Shown here piece after piece: positions 40,695 to 60,213 of a DNA stretch of 64,000 bases. Below the pieces are notes generated by a model that did no database searches, was not told the DNA's origin, and worked only from the letters and a program-made list of their open reading frames with translations. The position numbers and the translations under genes were made by a program. Location of the stretch: the NCBI RefSeq assembly GCF_003862495.1, contig NZ_RRCH01000003.1:186001-250000 (forward strand). Direction: 5' to 3'. Position 1 is the first letter of the stretch, and each line of letters opens with the position of its first letter. This DNA is from Halocatena pleomorpha. GTDB lineage: Archaea > Halobacteriota > Halobacteria > Halobacteriales > Haloarculaceae.

Positions 40695-43600
40695 CTATCG
40701 ATCAGACGATCGATCGTCGAACTCGCCGCCGTTCGTCGAAACTGATTGCTCGAACGTGGTCGTCACGTCCTCCTCACGGTCTCCGATCACCGCCTGTTCG
40801 GACGCATCAGGGGATCGAGCCGAAGTTCTCGAAAATCCGTCCCAGTTCATTCTGAGATACTGGTCAAAGTCGCCGTGTTTGCGCCCCGCGTAGTTCCAGA
40901 CGATATCCTCGAACGGACTGGCTTCGATGTGGCTCTCCCACCATCCTTCCCGATCCTGGAAGTGGATGAGACACTCCGAATACTGGCTTTCTGAACTGCC
41001 TGTGACGGCCGTGTTCCGCACGAAGTCGGCTTGATTCCGGTTTTGTCCCAATCCCTCCATGAGCAACTCCGGTTCGATCCGAGGCGTGCGGAACGTCTGG
41101 ATGGTCGAACACTGATCCAAGATGGTTCGACGCTGATTCTCTTGGCCCTCACCGATTGACTGTGCGCGCTCAATGAACTCCCGCGGTGATTGGGTAACGA
41201 ACCACAACGCCGCGTCGTATCGCGCCCAGCTCCGAGCCGCGTCCTGCAGATACTCGATCATCTCTTCGCTGTGGAGCAGGAAGTGAGCCTCATCGATCAA
41301 GAAGATGATCTCTCCTTTGGTTCGCTTGACCTTCTGGTACACCTGCCCGAAGATCAGATGGAGCATAACTGATTTTTCGGCTTCAGACGCCTCATTGAAC
41401 TGACTGAGATCGATGTACGCCATATCTGTCTCGCGGTCGAGGATGCCAGTTTCGGTCTCACCGACCATGTGGTGGTATTTCCGGTTCTCTTTGAATCCAC
41501 TGAGTTTGTCGAGGAGATCGGAAACGACGCGAACGCGCTGTTCGGCCTCGCGCTCATGACCAGTGAACGTAAAGCGTTCGGGGGTGTTGAGCATCTGTTC
41601 TAATACCGAAACGAAATCCTCGATCGTTGGGCTTGCCTCGTCGTGGGTCTCCGGATCGTGGGTGATCCCAACGGATTCGTACGTTTCTTGGACCGCGTCT
41701 TCGATCGTGGAGATGTACCCCGACGGGTCGATCCCTTGTGCCCGAAGGATGCCAGCAAAGAAGCTTGTAACCTCGTCGATTTTCATCTGGAAGTGATTCG
41801 ATTCCCCGACGCTCGATTCACGGATGCGCTTTGGTGGTCGTTGGATATCAAACGGATTGATCGTCTGCTGACCGTCGACGACGATGTGTTTCCCGCCACA
41901 GAGTTGGGTGAGACCTTCAAATCCTTGCTCAGTGTCACAGACGATGAGCGTTCGAGACGGATCCGAACAGTACCATTCTGCGAGTGCAGTTTCGACTGAG
42001 TACGTCTTTCCTGAACGGGTCTGTCCGAGCGTGAGAAGATGGGGAGCACCGCGTTCGAACGGGTCCGCGAAAATGGCCGAACCGTTCTGTTTGTTGCGCC
42101 CGAATCGAAGCCCACCGGATTCTTGCATGGTTCCGGCACACCACGGGAACATCGCTGCGATCGCACCCCCAAGCATGCGTGTTCGCTTTGGCTTGTCGCC
42201 TTTTTCGTGGTAGAGATCCGCTCCAGTCGGAGATGACGATTCGAACATATCGAGTGCAGACATATCAGAACTGGGCTGGCGAGGGCCGAGTCCAGCGGGT
42301 GCGCTCGTCAGCACTTCGAGAACATCGTCACAGGCGTCTTCGAGCGCCCGAACCTTCGCTAGATACAGGTTTTCCGTTTCACGGCCCATCTGTTGTGCGT
42401 ACTCGTATGCTTCCTCCGGTCCGACGCGGACTGTCACGTACATACTCACCTGCCACGGTTGCGCCGTCGTGTTCCGGAGGAGCAGATACATCTTCCGGAC
42501 CGCATCCTTATCGTTTTGGATCTGTATCTTACTCGCGTCCATGTTCTGGGCGCGCTCCATCTCCTCGGACTCGACATCTGCGTACAGCCGTTCGAGTTCC
42601 TCGATCGACCGTTGCTTGTACTCGGGTTCGACATGGACACGAACGTCGACGTTCGCCTTTCGCATGGTGAATAGGTCTCCGAGAAACAACGGTGGGGGTT
42701 CGACCGGCCACCCCATGACACAGAACGTTTTACAAAGCTCGTCTCCGACCGTGACACGGCCGTTTTGGGCGTCAAGCTCGCTCGGAGTGAGCATGCGTTC
42801 GGTCGGGGTCTCTCCGACGCTGACCCGGTTATCGTCGTTTGCCATCGCTTCTCTCACTTCCGTTCCGAGAGACAGTGACGGCTCTCCCGACCAGTACCGT
42901 AACAGCAGACGGGCGTGGTCGAGAACGCCCGCTCGACCGCTGTCGATCCCTTCTACTGAGGCGAGCGCGCCTCGGATCGTGTTCATTCGATCGTCGAGCT
43001 CTGCGCGTAGTTCCGAGTCTAGCGCCCGGTTCTCTTCGGTGTCGTCAGTCGATGAGAACAGCCCAAACAGTCCGGAGTCACCCGTGTCAGCGGATATCGG
43101 CCCCGTGGTTACGTCCTCAGGACTGACCTCGACGACGATGTAATACTCCCAGTCGTTGGCGTCCCATTTGGGTGATTCCGTCTCGACGAACCACGAGGAC
43201 ACGTTGAGCAACAGCTCCCGAACGTACTCATCTGCCCGAGCGGTGCCAGCGAGCGATTCGTTCGTCCGCTCGCTCTCTTCGACACACTCCGTTATATGCT
43301 CGATCAACTCCTCCGTCTCGAACGTGTCTGACGTTGCGTATATGGAAAACGGGATGTCCTTGATCTGTTCGTCGATACCGCTCGTGAGTGCCCCGACGTA
43401 CGTGTGTGCTTCTTGGGAGGTGATCCGGCAGGCGTTCATCCCCTTAACACCAATGAGACCGACTCGGCGGCCGTCGGTCATCTTAGCGGTTCCATCTGGA
43501 TACAGACGTTCCACTCCGTGTATTTGTCGTCCAAGCGTTTCGTGATAATGATAGGGGAACTTCTGTTGGATCCGACGCGACTCAATGAACCGTTCGAACC

Positions 43601-43874
43601 GCTCGCGCGAGGAGAGATAGTACGGATTAGTGTACGTGAGATACAGTACTGTTGGCAGTGCGACGAGGGAAATCGCAAACGAAACGACGGCGATTATCGT
43701 GGCGTCGATCGACCATGCCAGTAACGCAATGATCAGTGTGGCGAACGGAATGGCGAACGAGTAGATGTTATCGAGCGTAACGGCACCTTTGATCGTCACA
43801 TCCGTATCAACATGGGGTAATATCAGGCCAGTCTGATCTGATTGTGTGTTTGAGCTCTGTGAGTTCGTACTCAT
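40695..43874 (-). CDS. VirB4-like (CedB/TraC-type) transfer ATPase with VirB3-like N-terminal hairpin
   Basis: Protein of 1059 residues. Two membrane helices at about 38-82 (SFAIPFATLIIALLAWSI, then FAISLVALPTVLYLTYT) form a hairpin like VirB3, which is fused to VirB4 in many type IV secretion systems. The middle region (about 100-560) is the VirB4 N-domain. The ATPase part has Walker A LGQTRSGKTYS near 618, Walker B GEIIFLIDEAHFL near 858 and WFVTQSPREF near 895, the typical VirB4/HerA sequence. It ends with a disordered acidic tail. Predicted to power DNA or pilus movement from the inner face of the membrane. It is last in a three-gene leftward operon; a TATTTATTGG box at about 43920-43929 may give it a second promoter. 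Confidence 0.85.
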   Translation of the reverse strand: MSTNSQSSNTQSDQTGLILPHVDTDVTIKGAVTLDNIYSFAIPFATLIIALLAWSIDATIIAVVSFAISLVALPTVLYLTYTNPYYLSSRERFERFIESRRIQQKFPYHYHETLGRQIHGVERLYPDGTAKMTDGRRVGLIGVKGMNACRITSQEAHTYVGALTSGIDEQIKDIPFSIYATSDTFETEELIEHITECVEESERTNESLAGTARADEYVRELLLNVSSWFVETESPKWDANDWEYYIVVEVSPEDVTTGPISADTGDSGLFGLFSSTDDTEENRALDSELRAELDDRMNTIRGALASVEGIDSGRAGVLDHARLLLRYWSGEPSLSLGTEVREAMANDDNRVSVGETPTERMLTPSELDAQNGRVTVGDELCKTFCVMGWPVEPPPLFLGDLFTMRKANVDVRVHVEPEYKQRSIEELERLYADVESEEMERAQNMDASKIQIQNDKDAVRKMYLLLRNTTAQPWQVSMYVTVRVGPEEAYEYAQQMGRETENLYLAKVRALEDACDDVLEVLTSAPAGLGPRQPSSDMSALDMFESSSPTGADLYHEKGDKPKRTRMLGGAIAAMFPWCAGTMQESGGLRFGRNKQNGSAIFADPFERGAPHLLTLGQTRSGKTYSVETALAEWYCSDPSRTLIVCDTEQGFEGLTQLCGGKHIVVDGQQTINPFDIQRPPKRIRESSVGESNHFQMKIDEVTSFFAGILRAQGIDPSGYISTIEDAVQETYESVGITHDPETHDEASPTIEDFVSVLEQMLNTPERFTFTGHEREAEQRVRVVSDLLDKLSGFKENRKYHHMVGETETGILDRETDMAYIDLSQFNEASEAEKSVMLHLIFGQVYQKVKRTKGEIIFLIDEAHFLLHSEEMIEYLQDAARSWARYDAALWFVTQSPREFIERAQSIGEGQENQRRTILDQCSTIQTFRTPRIEPELLMEGLGQNRNQADFVRNTAVTGSSESQYSECLIHFQDREGWWESHIEASPFEDIVWNYAGRKHGDFDQYLRMNWDGFSRTSARSPDASEQAVIGDREEDVTTTFEQSVSTNGGEFDDRSSDR

Positions 43875-43958
43875 TGTTGATCGTGTATTTGCTGCGTATT
43901 TGGATTACTACCGTTCTCCCCAATAAATAGCCGGAATATCATTTAATAGTATGGATAC

Positions 43959-45407
43959 TTAGCGATTCGGACTCTCACTTGAGGCACCGAACTTCTTTTT
44001 CGGCTCTTTGTTAGAGTCGTCGTCATCATCGTCCTCAGATCTGTCTCGACTGCGACGATTAGAGGATCGTCTCTTTGAGTTGTTTCCACCCGGCGATCCT
44101 GTCGATATCCCGAAGACGCTTCCTGAGTTACCGACACTGAACGATGACTGGCTGTCAGGCGACTTGCTCGTCGCCCCATACCCGCCGGAACCATAGGATC
44201 TGTTCTGATTCTGTCCCCTCTGTCCACCACTGCTGCCGGATCCCCTGGGCTGACTCGTCGGATGGTGGGTCCCCGACGACGACCGATTTTGAGTGAGTAT
44301 GATCGATCTGGGGAACAGCTTCGTTACGAAAATGTACGGCAACCATATCAATGCGATCGAAAGCCCGGCGACGATCGCTATCACCTTGACCGCTATACCA
44401 CCAAGGCTGTCGTAGGGCAACTGATGGAGAAGGCGGAGAATCCCGCTCTGTGTGAACCGTAACAGAATGATTAAAGGGAGCATAGAGATCCCGACGATAC
44501 CGTACGATTGTAGATCTGATTGGGGTTGCACGCGAAGCGCCCAGAAGAGCGGCCAAAACGCAACCAAAATATATATAGACATATAAATCATTATTGATAT
44601 AATAAGTCCGATTCCGACGACAGTGCCTTTCGCCCAGATGAGTAACGCTCCAAACAGGAGTCCGAGACTGAGATCTGCAACACCGGACGTTGACGATATG
44701 AACTCATATCCACCCGGAGCGATCGCTTGTGTGAACTCGTTACCGAGATGGAGACAGAACGCGACCGCTGGAACACCGAGTATGATGAAAAACGCTGCCT
44801 TTCCGAGTTCGGTCAAACGTGTACGCCGTTGGTGAGGATCGACCGTGTCTATTGCGACCATAAACGAAGGCGTCAGCAGGGCGATCGCTACGGTCGTCAT
44901 GATTCCATAGACACCGTAGACAGCCGGCCACGGGTTTTCCGCTGATATCCACGTCGATACCTCGGTTGGATCCCCCGGTGCTGGCACACCAAGAATGTAG
45001 TCGTTGAACGTATCGATCGCTGAACTGATCAGTTCCATCGTCAAACTAACGATGAATTTGAACGCCTTTCTGATTATTTCACCAATATCAATGTCAACAA
45101 CGCCGATATCTATCGTGTACTTGTCACCGTCCCCATTATCCTGTTGGGGATAGACGCCATCGCCAGTCGGTCCGCCAAGCCAGTTCAGTCCGGAGACCGG
45201 TCGCCCTGTCCCGTCAACGAGAGAAAACCACGTGTCTGTGGTCCCTTCTGCCCGCATCTGCTGTGTCTGTTGACTCACGTGGTGTTGAGCATCCGTGGAC
45301 AATGAGCCATCAGTACCAGTCGGCGCACCGACGACAGGAGTCACAACGCCACACAAACAGATAAGACAAGTTAACACGACTATGCGATGGGTACTAGCAT
45401 GTATCAC
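43959..45407 (-). CDS. VirB6/TrbL/CedA-like polytopic membrane protein
   Basis: Protein of 482 residues. Signal peptide at 1-28 (VVLTCLICLCGVVTPVVGAP). A soluble extracellular part (about 30-115) precedes about seven membrane helices between 115 and 370 (for example GVYGIMTTVAIALLTPSFMV, LSLGLLFGALLIWAKGTVVG, GLIISIMIYMSIYILVAFWP, AVKVIAIVAGLSIALIWLPY). The C-terminal 110 residues are a Gly/Ser/Gln-rich disordered tail with a Ser-Arg cluster and an EDDDDDDSNKEPKKK end. Topology and position between a pilin-like gene and a VirB4-like gene match VirB6/TrbL, the channel component, or crenarchaeal CedA. Assignment rests on context and topology, not on a clear sequence motif. Confidence 0.6.
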   Translation of the reverse strand: MIHASTHRIVVLTCLICLCGVVTPVVGAPTGTDGSLSTDAQHHVSQQTQQMRAEGTTDTWFSLVDGTGRPVSGLNWLGGPTGDGVYPQQDNGDGDKYTIDIGVVDIDIGEIIRKAFKFIVSLTMELISSAIDTFNDYILGVPAPGDPTEVSTWISAENPWPAVYGVYGIMTTVAIALLTPSFMVAIDTVDPHQRRTRLTELGKAAFFIILGVPAVAFCLHLGNEFTQAIAPGGYEFISSTSGVADLSLGLLFGALLIWAKGTVVGIGLIISIMIYMSIYILVAFWPLFWALRVQPQSDLQSYGIVGISMLPLIILLRFTQSGILRLLHQLPYDSLGGIAVKVIAIVAGLSIALIWLPYIFVTKLFPRSIILTQNRSSSGTHHPTSQPRGSGSSGGQRGQNQNRSYGSGGYGATSKSPDSQSSFSVGNSGSVFGISTGSPGGNNSKRRSSNRRSRDRSEDDDDDDSNKEPKKKFGASSESPNR

Positions 45408-45420
45408 GCCGATTCCTCCA

Positions 45421-45894
45421 TTATGTGGGGAACAGGCATGAAGCGACGTCGATACCTGCAGTGTTCAGGAAAACAGGCACGAGAACAGGAAGAAGCGCCG
45501 CTACGAGCGAGTAGATACCACCTTTTGCCTCCTGTTTTCCTTGGGCCTGAGCACCGGAATCAGTGCTCCCGGCTTTATCTAGCCCGGTCATCATCCTGAT
45601 GAGGAATTTCAGTATGAAATACATTGATATCAATCCCAAGCCGACCGTGATTATCTGAGCAATATTGACGCCGGCTGAACCGTCACACAACACCTGTTCA
45701 GCTTCGGACACGCCCAATTGAGCCGCAACTGGCGTTGAATACAGCGGTATGAGAAACAACACCACGGTACCCATAGATAGATACAGATCGTGGCGTCCCG
45801 GCCGCGTGGCGATTCGTATAACTTGGTTAGTAATATTACTAACCATCTCAGTTATACGTTCTACACTCCTTGACAGAGGCGTCTTTTTGACCAT
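45421..45894 (-). CDS. VirB2/pilin-like small membrane protein
   Basis: Protein of 157 residues. After a 35-residue basic lead comes a signal-like helix (LSMGTVVLFLIPLYSTPVAA) with a plausible AxA-type cut at PVAAQ. The mature part has two membrane helices (IAQIITVGLGLISMYFILKF and YSLVAALLPVLVPVFLNTAG) joined by a short charged loop (QAQGKQEAKGG). That is the VirB2/TrbC/CedA1 pilin topology. Two cysteines (in VLCDGSAG and ASCLFPT) lie at the two ends of the mature chain on the same side and could form a disulfide. The stop is 13 bases from the next start. Start 45894 fits the TATA box at 45921. Confidence 0.6.
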   Translation of the reverse strand: MVKKTPLSRSVERITEMVSNITNQVIRIATRPGRHDLYLSMGTVVLFLIPLYSTPVAAQLGVSEAEQVLCDGSAGVNIAQIITVGLGLISMYFILKFLIRMMTGLDKAGSTDSGAQAQGKQEAKGGIYSLVAALLPVLVPVFLNTAGIDVASCLFPT

Positions 45895-46266
45895 GATATG
45901 AGTTAATATTAGAGTGAGGGTATAAAAAAGTACCGGAAAAAACACCATAAGGGTTATTTATTATAACGATACAAATGTCGTTCCAAATGATGATGATACG
46001 AGAAGCAATGGATAGTTGGTACAGATAGTATGTTAATGTTTTTTATCAGCATAGATTTATACCAGATTGGACGGTATCATTATACACGGGAGCCAGATGA
46101 GTGAAACATCGACCACCAGGAGTATTCCCCGAGAGAGTGTGAGACGACATGGATACGTATGATAGTCTGATAACGTACAGTAAAATCCTTATCGATATCC
46201 ACAACATAGTACGTTTATTGCAGTCTGGAACCGTCGCCCAACACAGTCGGTTGATACACTAGTGAC
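45895..46266. other. 372-base AT-rich divergent spacer
   Basis: Holds the operon promoter on the minus strand and a TTTATT box at 46214-46219 for the rightward beta-helix gene (leader about 25 bases). A 21-codon open frame at 46097-46162, with a TTTATA box at 46062-46067 ahead of it, may be a remnant. No other gene or repeat seen. Confidence 0.5.
45921..45927 (-). promoter_or_regulatory. Promoter of the pilin-like / VirB6-like / VirB4-like operon
   Basis: Reads TTTTATA on the minus strand, centred about 30 bases before the ATG at 45894, within a TTTTTTATACCC context. Strong leaderless promoter candidate for the whole operon. Confidence 0.6.
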
Positions 46267-47502
46267 ATGGCTACGAAGAAGACAACTAACAGGCGCCGGT
46301 TTCTCAAAACCGTCGGAGCTGCCGGGGGTATCGGCATGTCGTCAATAAGCGGTTGTCTGTCGATGTGGATCGGTGGCGACAATGGAGGAGGAAAGTATCC
46401 ATCGATGGAATTCGCTTCCCAAAAACACCGTGTTACCCGGGAAATGGCGACGCAGGTCGTTTCCGATCGGGCATCACTCCTCGAAGCAGTTCGAACTCCA
46501 GAAGCGACAGTGTGGATTCCAAACTCAGTCACAATCGATATGACGGGCGTAATCGGTGCTCCCATCGCACCGAACGTGACGATTGCCAGTGGCCGTAATT
46601 TGAACGACAAGAACGGCGGACAGATCAAAACGGATGGTTACGACAAAGGGATCTTCATCAACGATGCCGGTGGATGCCGGATCACTGGCCTTCGACTGCG
46701 GGGGCCGCGGCTGGATAAGTTCGAGCCGTGGCAAGGCAATAAAGACGAGGAGGATTTCGCGGCACTCGGATTCAATTTTCAGGGACAAACTGCGATCATC
46801 GATCACTGTGAGGTCTTCGGCTGGACGTTCGCCGGAATCGCTCTCGGAGCGGAAACCAAATACACGCAGGGATGGATCCATCACAACTCGATGCACCACA
46901 ACCAGATGAATCATCTCGGATATCCAATGGAATTATACAATGGATTGCATCTGATCGAGTGGAACACCTTTGATTACAATCGTCATTCTATCGCTGGCTT
47001 TGGGTACCCAACCAGTGGGTACGAAGCCCGGTTCAACGTTATCGGACCGAATGCAACCTTACACGCATTCGATATGCACTACCTTGGTGAGAATCTCGAT
47101 TATCTCAAAGGTTCCAAACTCGGAACCGTTGCCGGTACGTTCGTCAACATTCATCATAACGTGTTCAAACTGACCTCGTATCCGGCGTTTTCCATTCAGG
47201 GGTATCCCGAAGAATACGCCCGTTTTTGTAATAATTGGTGTGCTGAGCAGATAGATGGGGGTGAACCGGACGCTATAGGTAAGGTCGTTCTCTTTCCCAA
47301 CAAGGCAGACGTGCGCGTCAAAGGCAACACGTACGGTTCGAGTGCGGTCCTCTCCGGACAAGAACGACTCCGAGAAATCGAGCTTCAGGTAGCGGAATCG
47401 CAGAATTCGTCGACGGACGACCCGCCGAAAGCAACACCTACACCGATGAATCTCAAGCAATTGTTTCAGGGATCGACACAGAACGAATCGACGACACAAT
47501 GA
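46267..47502 (+). CDS. Tat-exported lipoprotein with right-handed beta-helix
   Basis: Protein of 411 residues. Tat motif NRRRFLKTVGAAGGIG, lipobox SISGC near residue 28. The body has pectate-lyase-like beta-helix coils (DMTGVIGAPIAPNVTIASGR, CRITGLRLRGPRL, AIIDHCEVFGWTFAGIAL, WIHHNSMHHNQ, NPARFNVIG-like turns), typical of polysaccharide lyases or adhesins. The His/Asn-rich WIHHNSMHHNQMNH turn is striking. A disordered Ser/Thr/Pro tail follows. Probably binds or cleaves a surface or environmental polysaccharide; the catalytic residues are not identifiable. It is divergent from the transfer operon. Confidence 0.75.
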   Translation: MATKKTTNRRRFLKTVGAAGGIGMSSISGCLSMWIGGDNGGGKYPSMEFASQKHRVTREMATQVVSDRASLLEAVRTPEATVWIPNSVTIDMTGVIGAPIAPNVTIASGRNLNDKNGGQIKTDGYDKGIFINDAGGCRITGLRLRGPRLDKFEPWQGNKDEEDFAALGFNFQGQTAIIDHCEVFGWTFAGIALGAETKYTQGWIHHNSMHHNQMNHLGYPMELYNGLHLIEWNTFDYNRHSIAGFGYPTSGYEARFNVIGPNATLHAFDMHYLGENLDYLKGSKLGTVAGTFVNIHHNVFKLTSYPAFSIQGYPEEYARFCNNWCAEQIDGGEPDAIGKVVLFPNKADVRVKGNTYGSSAVLSGQERLREIELQVAESQNSSTDDPPKATPTPMNLKQLFQGSTQNESTTQ

Positions 47503-47592
47503 GTCCGGGATTTCTCTCGACCACAATAGTAATATATAATCGATAAAATATAATTAAATGGGAGCTATATTCTCGATAACGGCTGTAATACG

Positions 47593-48573
47593 ATGTTATC
47601 AGTGCATAATCTCAGCTATACTCGACCGCTGCTGTTGTTCGTCATCGTTGGATCGATCGCTCTTTCCGGCTTAGCCATGCCGGCAAGCCCATCGACGATC
47701 GTTGATCAGTCAGCCCCACCACAAAACGTTAGCGACGAACACACGATGGTCATCAAAACGACGGACGAACCGATTCAGTACGTTCTTTCAGCAACGGGGA
47801 GAGTCAGGGGGGAGCCAAACGAAAGTGACGCTGTTCAGGGCAGAACACTGAGCGGTCGGGTTGGCGGTGTGTCGTGGAATAACACGACCGACGACACTAC
47901 AGACACCGTAACGTACACTGGTTACATCGAATCGTTCCAGCCCCGTGGCGGTGATCCACAACTCCGGATCGAGGGACAACAGATCTCACCGGACACGCTT
48001 TCGGCCAACCATCTCCGGATCGCACGGCCGAATTCCTCGACTAACAATCCCATCAACTACGAAATCACAGTCACCGGTGACGCTACGCCGGGGGAATCCA
48101 CCGAGGGGCAGGATCAGACGACAGTAGCCGGCGGAGCGAACGGGACCCGGATTCAGGGCCAACTCACCGACCAGTACGACTCGTTTTATTTCACAGGGAA
48201 CACGACATCCACGTCGTTCGATCGGCAGGCACGCGTTTTCATCAACGGACAGAACACCGCTGTTCAGAACAGTAATAATGGAACACAGACAGATACGCAT
48301 CCAACACCGATCGGGGGAGCAGCCACTGACGCCCCCGTACTCACGACAACCGAACGCACGACAAGTCAGCCGACAAACAGTCGAGACGCGTCACAAGCGC
48401 CGGCGGACAGCGGGAGAACCGACACTACGCAGGCAACGAGTAACGAGGGAGCCGAGTCGTCGGAATCTACATCACCGCTCGCATTTCTCTTCCGTGTGGC
48501 CAGTGGACTCGTCCTAGTAGCACTTCTCGTCGGCGCCGGCTGGTATTTCTTACCCAGACAGCAGCGCTGGTAG
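47593..48573 (+). CDS. Cell-surface protein with two copies of a haloarchaeal beta domain
   Basis: Protein of 326 residues. Sec signal (LLLFVIVGSIALSGLAMP), then two related beta domains at about 48-135 (HTMVIKTTDEPIQYVLSATG ... TYTGYIESF ... QLRIEGQQISP) and 150-218 (INYEITVTGD ... DSFYFTGNTTS ... RVFINGQ). A Thr/Ser/Gln-rich stalk with glycosylation sites follows, then a C-terminal membrane helix (FRVASGLVLVALLVGAGWYF) with RQQRW. The same domain pair ends the beta-helix protein at 58.1-60.2 kb. Likely displayed on the cell surface. It lies 90 bases after the beta-helix lipoprotein in the same direction. Confidence 0.72.
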   Translation: MLSVHNLSYTRPLLLFVIVGSIALSGLAMPASPSTIVDQSAPPQNVSDEHTMVIKTTDEPIQYVLSATGRVRGEPNESDAVQGRTLSGRVGGVSWNNTTDDTTDTVTYTGYIESFQPRGGDPQLRIEGQQISPDTLSANHLRIARPNSSTNNPINYEITVTGDATPGESTEGQDQTTVAGGANGTRIQGQLTDQYDSFYFTGNTTSTSFDRQARVFINGQNTAVQNSNNGTQTDTHPTPIGGAATDAPVLTTTERTTSQPTNSRDASQAPADSGRTDTTQATSNEGAESSESTSPLAFLFRVASGLVLVALLVGAGWYFLPRQQRW

Positions 48574-58092: not shown

Positions 58093-60213
58093 TTACTGTT
58101 GACCGAAACTGATGGCGGCGTCGCCGTCGACATCAAGCTCGGTGATCTGCCCGGAGAACCGGAAGCTGTCGCGTCGATCGGAGACGGTCCCGCGGGCTGT
58201 CGATCCCGAAACCGTGTCATCGCTTTCTGCGAACGTTCCTTTTTCGAGCGACCCGTTCACCGATAGGGCGTACTTCGACGCCCCGTTGGAGTTGCTCCCA
58301 TCGATGATGAGGGTGTGCTGTTTGTCACCCTCGGTACCGAGTGCGTTCGGGTCGACAGCTTGTCCGTCGACCTGTACGGTGAGGTTACCGTCTGTCGAGA
58401 ACGACGTTACGGAGCCGGTGAACAGGAACTTATCTGAGGAGTTGCTGACGGCACCGGACGACCAGTTTTCACCGACCAAGGTTTCGCTCGTGCAATCGAA
58501 CGACCCGGGATCTTCGTTCGGCTGAAGGGTGCCGTCGACAGCAAACGTGTAGTTGGCCTTCGAACCGTTCCCTTTGATCTCAAGCGTGTGGGTGTCCGCC
58601 CCGCTTGCACCGTTCTCGGTGGTAGCGTTCGCGCCGGCACCGCTTGCGCTTCCGACCAAGAGGTTGGTCATCTTCGAGAGGAGACCCTGAGAGGAGTCAG
58701 ACGACGATCCAGACTCGTTCTTGCTCTTACTCTTGTTCTTCTTCGAAGCGGACTTGGATCCAGCCCCGGATCCTGATCCAGAGCTACTGAGATCGAGCGA
58801 CGGCGCCGATCCGGAGTTACTGACGTTGATGGTCTTACCAGACGACGATTTCAACTGGACCGATTTCCCTGGCGTCTTGATCGTGGTGTTTTTGACGAGG
58901 GTGTTATCGGAATTCGAGAACACGATCCCTTTGCGGCCGGAACCGCTCTGCTCGATGTAGCTGTTTTTGATCTGCGAGCCGTTGCCCTGTCCGACCAGCA
59001 CGGACGGACCGCTCGCCGCTGAACCGGTGATCTTGACGCGGTCCATGCGGAGCCACCGGGGGTTCGGACTGGGACCGTGACGCCCCTGAGAGACCTGTTT
59101 CTCGCGACGGATGGCCGGCGCGCCGTCGTTGTTATACGTGATCCGGGTGTTTTTCACCTTCAGCGTGCGGCCGCCAGTCCAAACGGCGATCCCAGGCCCG
59201 CTGGTAGGGTTGTTTTCGATGGTGATGTCGGTGTTTCGGACTTTTGCGCCGGCTTCGTCGAAGTTGCCGCCGGTCGCGGACGAGGCGTTGCCCTGCTCGA
59301 ACAGCACACCGCGCATCGTGAACGCGTCGTCTTCGAGCGTGTGGGGACCGGAGTACTTCTGGGGGTTGACTTCGACGGTTGCCCCATCGACGTAGCTTCC
59401 CTCACCCGAAATCCGGATGCCACACACGTTGTTGTTCCGGTAGGTGCCGCCGATGACTTGCACCGAGCTGAGCGTCCGGCTTCCGTAGATGCCGTTGTTA
59501 CCGAACTCTTCGAGGTGGCAGTCGACGATCTTGACCGTGCCCTTCCCGCCGTAGACGGAGATGCCAGCACGACCGTCGCCGGATTTGTAGTGTGCCCACG
59601 CCGAGCCTTTCTTCGCAACGAAGTCTTTGAGAACGCCGGTCGAGTTGGGATCGTTCACCCGAAGCTGCCAACACCGGGTCACGTCGCTCGAATCGACGAT
59701 TGCGCGCCCGATGTGCTCGATGTTCTCCGCGTGAAAACCGCGTTCGGAGTTGATCCGGATCCCCGTGGCCGTCTGGTTGGCACGAACATCCACGTCGAAG
59801 TTCTCGAACAGCGCCTTATTACAGGTCGTGTTAATGAAGAACTCGTTATAGTTGGAGGGGAACGTGAACGTCACGTTGTCGTTTTTCCCCCGAATACCGA
59901 TCCGATCGGTGTCCGCAGTGATCGAACCGCCCCAGTGGTACGTTCCCGCAGGGAACTCCACGAGGGTCTGTCCGTCGAGTGCTGATTCAACTTTACTGGT
60001 AACGTCGCCGTTGCCGTTTGGATCACAGCCGAGATCCTTGACCGCGTCGACGACGTTGTTGAACGTGATACCGTGGCGCGTTTTCGCGCTTGCACGTCCG
60101 GCCTGTGTCGTTCCGAGTACGGAACCACCGATGACCGCTCCAGTAAGCTTGATGTAACTACGTCGTTCGAGATGTGACGAGTCATCCTCTCCGTTCTCTG
60201 AATCAGATCTCAT
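58093..60213 (-). CDS. Tat-exported right-handed beta-helix protein with tandem C-terminal beta domains
   Basis: Protein of 706 residues. Tat motif ERRSYIKLTGAVIGGSVLG near residues 17-35. The beta-helix body (about 50-440) has regular coils (ADTDRIGIRGKNDNVTFTFP, VQVIGGTYRNNNVCGIRI, LKVKNTRITYNNDGAPAI, QIKNSYIEQSGSGRKGIVFS). Next comes a low-complexity linker (about 470-510) of Ser, Gly, Lys and Asn. Two copies of a beta domain end it: about 544-625 (HTLEIKGNGSKANYTFAVDG ... KFLFTGSVTSF ... VQVDGQAVDP) and 629-706 (HTLIIDGSNSNGASKYALSV ... SFRFSGQITEL). The same domain pair occurs in the 47.6 kb surface protein. Likely a secreted polysaccharide-active or polysaccharide-binding protein. Confidence 0.8.
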   Translation of the reverse strand: MRSDSENGEDDSSHLERRSYIKLTGAVIGGSVLGTTQAGRASAKTRHGITFNNVVDAVKDLGCDPNGNGDVTSKVESALDGQTLVEFPAGTYHWGGSITADTDRIGIRGKNDNVTFTFPSNYNEFFINTTCNKALFENFDVDVRANQTATGIRINSERGFHAENIEHIGRAIVDSSDVTRCWQLRVNDPNSTGVLKDFVAKKGSAWAHYKSGDGRAGISVYGGKGTVKIVDCHLEEFGNNGIYGSRTLSSVQVIGGTYRNNNVCGIRISGEGSYVDGATVEVNPQKYSGPHTLEDDAFTMRGVLFEQGNASSATGGNFDEAGAKVRNTDITIENNPTSGPGIAVWTGGRTLKVKNTRITYNNDGAPAIRREKQVSQGRHGPSPNPRWLRMDRVKITGSAASGPSVLVGQGNGSQIKNSYIEQSGSGRKGIVFSNSDNTLVKNTTIKTPGKSVQLKSSSGKTINVSNSGSAPSLDLSSSGSGSGAGSKSASKKNKSKSKNESGSSSDSSQGLLSKMTNLLVGSASGAGANATTENGASGADTHTLEIKGNGSKANYTFAVDGTLQPNEDPGSFDCTSETLVGENWSSGAVSNSSDKFLFTGSVTSFSTDGNLTVQVDGQAVDPNALGTEGDKQHTLIIDGSNSNGASKYALSVNGSLEKGTFAESDDTVSGSTARGTVSDRRDSFRFSGQITELDVDGDAAISFGQQ

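Follow-up and report, generated by a model that had tools for sequence, protein, structure and literature searches.

In a 64,000-nucleotide stretch of the Halocatena pleomorpha genome (contig NZ_RRCH01000003.1, positions 186,001 to 250,000; hereafter the window), we find a three-gene operon that probably encodes a domesticated haloarchaeal mating-pore module, that is, the VirB2, VirB6 and VirB4 core of a type IV secretion system (T4SS). We propose, with a probability of about 0.7, that this module was derived separately, from haloarchaeal conjugative plasmids, and that it is analogous to the Ced and Ted systems. Within the T4SS superfamily, the locus is best described as a new haloarchaeal form, a T4SS core domesticated on the chromosome and equipped with surface partners of its own. 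An earlier note on this DNA, made from the sequence alone, had described three same-strand open reading frames (ORFs) and read them as VirB2-like, VirB6-like and VirB4-like. The ORFs are as described, and the reading as a type IV secretion core is supported by profile matches, fold ranking and recurrent gene order. The genes of this trio and their promoter are:

40695-43874, minus strand: VirB4-like ATPase gene, an ORF of 1059 amino acids (aa)
43959-45407, minus strand: gene of the VirB6-like polytopic membrane protein, 482 aa
45421-45894, minus strand: VirB2-like pilin gene, probably 157 aa from M19; the open frame (175 aa) runs to 45948
45895-45935, minus strand: core promoter, with the TATA box TTTTTTATA at about 45929-45921; its footprint is conserved in six genus loci

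The identity of the ATPase as a VirB4 is secure on the evidence of profiles. Its matches to VirB4 models, all of them below the equivalog cut-offs, include NCBIfam NF045975 (5e-33), CD1110 (2e-25), TraC-F (3e-17) and VirB4_CagE (9e-14), and the best profiles are those of conjugative elements from Gram-positive bacteria and mycoplasmas. The Walker A (GQTRSGKT) and Walker B (FLIDEAHFLL) motifs reported earlier are present in the 1059-aa product, and the P-loop part, a C-terminal motor, matches a solved VirB4-like ATPase (PDB 4ag5/4ag6, 5e-9). The N-terminus carries two transmembrane segments at residues 31-82. By position only, this part may be VirB3-like; no VirB3 or PrgI model matched.

For both membrane proteins, hydropathy and AlphaFold2 (AF2) models agree with the earlier descriptions. 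The 482-aa protein has a signal-like N-terminus followed by about six more hydrophobic segments, a core modelled with a predicted local distance difference test score (pLDDT) above 90, and a disordered C-terminal tail rich in Ser, Gly and Asp. In a fold search of 350,542 PDB chains, its four top matches were all TrwI, the VirB6 of the R388 Trw system (probability up to 0.91), with low TM-scores and E values of 0.13-0.18; the likeness to Trw does not extend to VirB5 or an outer-membrane core, neither of which is expected in an archaeon. Profile searches of the PDB with alignments of both membrane proteins returned nothing relevant, and a search for the VirB6 family outside Halobacteria, which is weak for divergent members, gave no match in 295 genomes of the phylum. 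The VirB6 reading is strengthened by the fixed place that the protein keeps between VirB2 and VirB4, and we consider this model-based assignment supported, not proven.

The small protein consists of a signal-like segment and two long hydrophobic helices, which AF2 models as a helical hairpin (95-125/130-162). Across 21 homologues, A75, Q76, C87 and C170 (alignment positions) are invariant: the signal peptide ends VAA/Q (the slash marks the cut), and the two cysteines, which may form a disulphide, flank the hairpin. The Pfam model T4SS_pilin (PF18895) matches 11 of the 21 homologues (best 3e-4), with the window protein below the curated cut-off. These sequence features support a VirB2-type pilin. 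A homology between VirB2 and VirB6, as reported for Ced/Vir, is unsupported here, as the profile comparison aligned signal-site residues only. Upstream of the gene, the block CGGTACTTTTTTATACCC...CTAATATTAA is nearly invariant across six genus loci, and this phylogenetic footprint, which supports the single operon promoter claimed earlier, places the TATA box about 26 nt ahead of the ATG at 45894. The ORF most likely begins at that ATG (M19, 157 aa) instead of at 45948, and because the conserved TATA box sits so close to it we predict a leaderless start.

To place the trio among its relatives, we find VirB4 relatives in 188 of 293 genomes of the order, and about 60 stretches around them were taken for profile scanning of the neighbourhoods. 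The VirB2-VirB6-VirB4 order is kept in 32 of the loci examined, down to about 20-30% identity, which together with the purifying selection described below excludes chance; linkage to an unrelated pathway was seen at none of the trio loci. The nearest VirB4 relatives come from conjugative plasmids of haloarchaea, in systems that include VirD4 and, in some cases, a relaxase. At 21 of the 32 trio loci, the stretch scanned also contains a VirD4 coupling protein, of which there are two types. The first is long, stands immediately downstream of VirB4 and matches a Pfam coupling-protein model only weakly (2e-4 to 5e-4). The second is short (TrwB_AAD_bind, 1e-38) and follows a MobC-like protein (Pfam NikA-like, 2.5e-5) and a relaxase whose PF03432 match (2.8e-7) is above the cut-off. 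Four of these VirD4-linked trio loci, mostly on plasmid-sized contigs, also carry a relaxase and a MobC-like protein; relatives with a relaxase are L041, L043, L046 and L056. In Halalkalicoccus jeotgali plasmid 4, typed by MOB-suite as non-mobilizable, a protein with a twin-arginine translocation (TAT) signal, VirB2, VirB6, a "transfer complex protein", a MobC-like protein, a relaxase and VirD4 lie within 12 kb, mostly annotated as hypothetical. Judged from their gene content, these plasmid sets look like complete, relaxase-bearing conjugation systems. Operons of a MobC-like protein, a relaxase (PF03432) and VirD4 are found at:

L043:4473-6914, on a haloarchaeal plasmid with the trio
L046:15659-18412, on a haloarchaeal plasmid with the trio
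L056:12990-15483, on a haloarchaeal plasmid with the trio
L117, 21952-24319, on Halalkalicoccus jeotgali plasmid 4

The same survey brought up several variants. VirB4 reaches about 1550 aa in L047:7410-12122 (minus strand) and L049:7441-12072 (plus strand), and the C-terminal extension in L047 contains helix-hairpin-helix domains (PF14520, 1.9e-17), which hints that a DNA-binding module has been joined to this VirB4. Another subtype of haloarchaeal T4SS (L063, L065-L070 and L107) usually has VirB4 split into an N-terminal protein of about 340 aa and a motor of 650-760 aa, together with a distant VirB6-like protein and, in most cases, an upstream protein of 526-650 aa (family f10). On a plasmid-sized contig of Actinarchaeum, three VirB2-like genes stand upstream of VirB6 (L095:13667-16604).

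The window copy, unlike its plasmid relatives, is chromosomal and genus-wide and has no VirD4, MobC or relaxase beside it. The trio is present in all seven Halocatena/Actinarchaeum genomes, on a 467-kb contig in the assembly of the window and on contig C1 in the others, and VirB4 identity is 86% to YIM A00010, 79% to H. marina and 77% to Actinarchaeum halophilum. The flanks, psmA and hflX on one side and SMP30-like and oxidoreductase genes on the other, are the same in five of six loci compared; in H. marina a block of five genes, the trio and two neighbours described below, is intact at another site with both flanks different. All five genes of this cassette are under purifying selection, and the phylogeny of the window copy matches that of the species. 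Relative to the nearest relative, the ratio of nonsynonymous to synonymous substitution rates (dN/dS) is 0.08 for VirB4, 0.12 for VirB2 and 0.23 for VirB6, and 0.04 and 0.07 for hflX and psmA. The genus copies fall into a single clade of the VirB4 tree (100/100) that is sister to a VirD4-linked copy from Halegenticoccus, and three chromosomal copies without a coupling gene, from a second genus (L038-L040), group as sister to a copy with VirD4 and relaxase (L041). Given these two separate sister relations, and provided that the coupling gene was lost and not gained, copies without it have arisen on at least two occasions. The simplest account is that, two or more times, a mating pore was taken over from a plasmid and retained while its coupling genes were not.

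Two other histories of the cassette were considered. Horizontal arrival of the H. marina cassette is unsupported: the VirB4 and hflX trees have the same topology within the genus, and a Halocatena clade is not rejected (p-AU 0.12). A recent mobile element at the window site is rejected, given that the flanks are genus-conserved core genes and that the window has no tRNA.

Two neighbouring genes (46267-48573), which the earlier note had missed, belong to the cassette:

46267-47502, plus strand: TAT-exported beta-helix lipoprotein gene, divergent from VirB2
47593-48573, plus strand: gene of a secreted protein with a C-terminal membrane anchor (family f12), adjoining the beta-helix gene

The right-handed beta-helix protein has a TAT signal (TIGR01409, 0.0023) and a lipobox (RRRFLK...SGC), and the Pfam Beta_helix model matches it at 0.04 and its homologues, most of which have a lipobox, at 3.6e-4 to 7e-9. 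For 21 of the 32 trios a member of this family is found no more than 10 kb away, mostly divergent, compared with 2 of the 29 other stretches (Fisher p 3e-6; these other stretches are a non-random sample, and the profile was built from the same loci). The f12 protein has hydrophobic N- and C-terminal segments (signal and anchor) and no match in Pfam; its gene is next to that of the beta-helix protein at every genus locus and is near it in plasmid loci L054 and L093 and in L096. Elsewhere in the window, a 706-aa protein (58093-60213, minus strand) matches both the beta-helix (5.7e-31) and f12 (8.3e-16) families and is an apparent fusion, which suggests that the two form a functional pair. They may act in cell contact or surface processing.

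How does this cassette compare with known systems? Ced of Sulfolobales and Ted of Thermoproteales, described as domesticated T4SS by Beltran et al. (PMC9905601), are likewise minimal chromosomal sets of a VirB2-like, a VirB6-like and a VirB4-like protein without coupling protein, and TedC of Ted has a signal site of the same AxA/Q type as the VAA/Q of the window pilin. However, the particular kinship with Ced and Ted proposed earlier is not supported. The window VirB4 has 1059 aa and an N-terminal transmembrane part, and it matches the CedB model at E 0.012 (14 bits against a cut-off of 700), far worse than the conjugative VirB4 models (9e-14 to 5e-33). No sequence link of the membrane proteins was found, with neither CedA1 nor TedC recovered by profile or fold among PDB chains; the window has a beta-helix surface partner, and no HerA/Rad50 or Ups linkage was seen. 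The resemblance thus appears, from sequence comparison, to reflect parallel reduction. Closer likenesses are to the haloarchaeal plasmid conjugation systems, which combine a homologous VirB4 with a T4CP and a relaxase (pNG500, noted in PMC3158045, is one), and especially to Halalkalicoccus jeotgali plasmid 4, where VirB2, VirB6 and the beta-helix TAT protein are homologous too and stand in the same order. The origin of the best VirB4 profiles recalls the MPF_FATA-type T4SS (Firmicutes, Actinobacteria, Tenericutes and Archaea), and the PF18895 model is also used for pilins of the Patescibacteria T4SS (PMC12102498). Unlike these systems, the window locus has no identified VirB1, VirB8 or PrgB-type adhesin, and its VirB6 family occurs only in Halobacteria within the phylum sample.

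We propose the following model. An ancestral haloarchaeal conjugative plasmid would have carried VirB2-VirB6-VirB4, a beta-helix surface lipoprotein and VirD4, with MobC and relaxase in some lineages. In Halocatena/Actinarchaeum, the pore-and-pilus part would have become a stable part of the chromosome, unaccompanied by the coupling and nicking genes, and then been inherited vertically. VirB2 would be exported, cut at VAA/Q and held in the membrane as a helical hairpin with its two conserved cysteines outside, and VirB4 hexamers would raise the pilins via the VirB6 platform into a short pilus or pore. On the outer face, the beta-helix lipoprotein and its membrane-anchored partner may work in contact with, or processing of, a neighbour's S-layer or glycans, after which single-stranded DNA would move from cell to cell. 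By homology to conjugation, cell-to-cell transfer of single-stranded DNA by a pore-and-pilus machine is the likeliest function. The transfer may be import, as in Ced, or export served in trans by VirD4 proteins encoded elsewhere.

The earlier note had argued for import from the lack of a relaxase, coupling protein or integrase nearby. The first two points stand within the families searched: no PF10412 or PF02534 match is found on the 467-kb contig, and PF03432 has no match (E 0.1) anywhere in the genome, with other relaxase families not searched and integrases not profile-searched. But the genome has four intact VirD4 genes on other contigs (PF10412 up to 6e-43) and one VirB4 of the trio kind. 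These genes make it less safe to conclude import from the lack of a nearby coupling protein; export in trans would also fit. Two of them, at C26 and C48 (L071:2019-5637 and L074:5629-9402), belong to a recurrent set with a small protein and a metallo-beta-lactamase-fold protein (PF00753); this VirD4 has an N-terminal transmembrane part, and the set is near Orc1/Cdc6-type genes.

Several points weigh against the domesticated mating pore as we propose it. VirD4 is encoded at other sites in each of the seven genus genomes, and "domesticated" may therefore overstate what is perhaps a loss of linkage only, and whether a coupling gene was lost or gained depends on the root of the tree. The structural match of the membrane proteins foreseen in the earlier note was obtained weakly for VirB6, which matches no Pfam/NCBIfam profile and whose fold match is not significant by E value, and was not obtained for VirB2, whose model is too weak and gave no pilin among the top fold matches. 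The cargo, too, may be protein instead of DNA.

This last point leads to the alternative that the T4SS has been re-used for protein export or surface attachment by a pilus adhesin, without DNA cargo, the beta-helix lipoprotein being effector or adhesin. Neither coupling protein nor relaxase stands alongside, surface proteins are linked, and bacterial T4SS without MOB are commonly regarded as protein transporters (PMC3158045). Nevertheless, we consider this unlikely, as the beta-helix family also accompanies relaxase-bearing plasmid systems, which would be expected to carry DNA, and the TAT signal and lipobox of the protein mean that it does not need a T4SS for export. In a second alternative, the trio is a shared channel, and co-resident plasmids, supplying VirD4 themselves along with a nicking enzyme that has escaped recognition, export DNA through the chromosomal pore. 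The several VirD4 genes beside a single VirB4 of the trio kind, their presence genus-wide and the location of at least two of them beside replication genes fit this idea. It is nonetheless improbable: PF03432 is absent from the genome, the VirD4 genes stand in another context (with a metallo-beta-lactamase partner in two), and PF10412 is so common in archaea (Haloferax and Sulfolobus controls) that co-occurrence is weak evidence. Lastly, the missing coupling and nicking genes and the plasmid relatives could indicate a decaying, functionless remnant of an integrated conjugative element, a very remote prospect that is largely refuted by the selection data (VirB4 constraint about that of psmA), the intact trio in all seven genomes and the conserved promoter.

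Many archaeal VirB4 genes and one conjugative haloarchaeal plasmid were reported by Guglielmini et al., Haloarcula pNG500 being classed as conjugative in 2011 (PMC3158045), yet papers from 2023 and 2025 state that relaxases had still to be identified in conjugative plasmids or genomes of archaea (PMC9905601, PMC12857230). The plasmid relatives described here combine an above-cut-off relaxase, a MobC-like protein and VirD4 with VirB2, VirB6 and VirB4, and they matter on that account alone. No paper describing VirB2 or VirB6 in haloarchaea was found in the open-access literature, subscription papers not being covered. Hyphae and spores are known for members of the genus (PMC10067837). We tentatively suggest, as a possibility more doubtful than the module itself, that haloarchaea repeatedly (at least twice, in two genera) turned plasmid mating pores into chromosomal DNA-exchange organs passed on by vertical inheritance, and that the Halocatena/Actinarchaeum copy is used to exchange DNA inside hyphae-forming, sporulating colonies, with the beta-helix lipoprotein as a cell-contact or S-layer-processing factor. 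Gene exchange in haloarchaea is known mainly from cell fusion in Haloferax. If our proposal is true, a chromosomal T4SS core kept genus-wide would be the third domesticated conjugation machine in archaea after Ced and Ted, and the parallel copy in a second haloarchaeal genus would mean that such domestication happens repeatedly.

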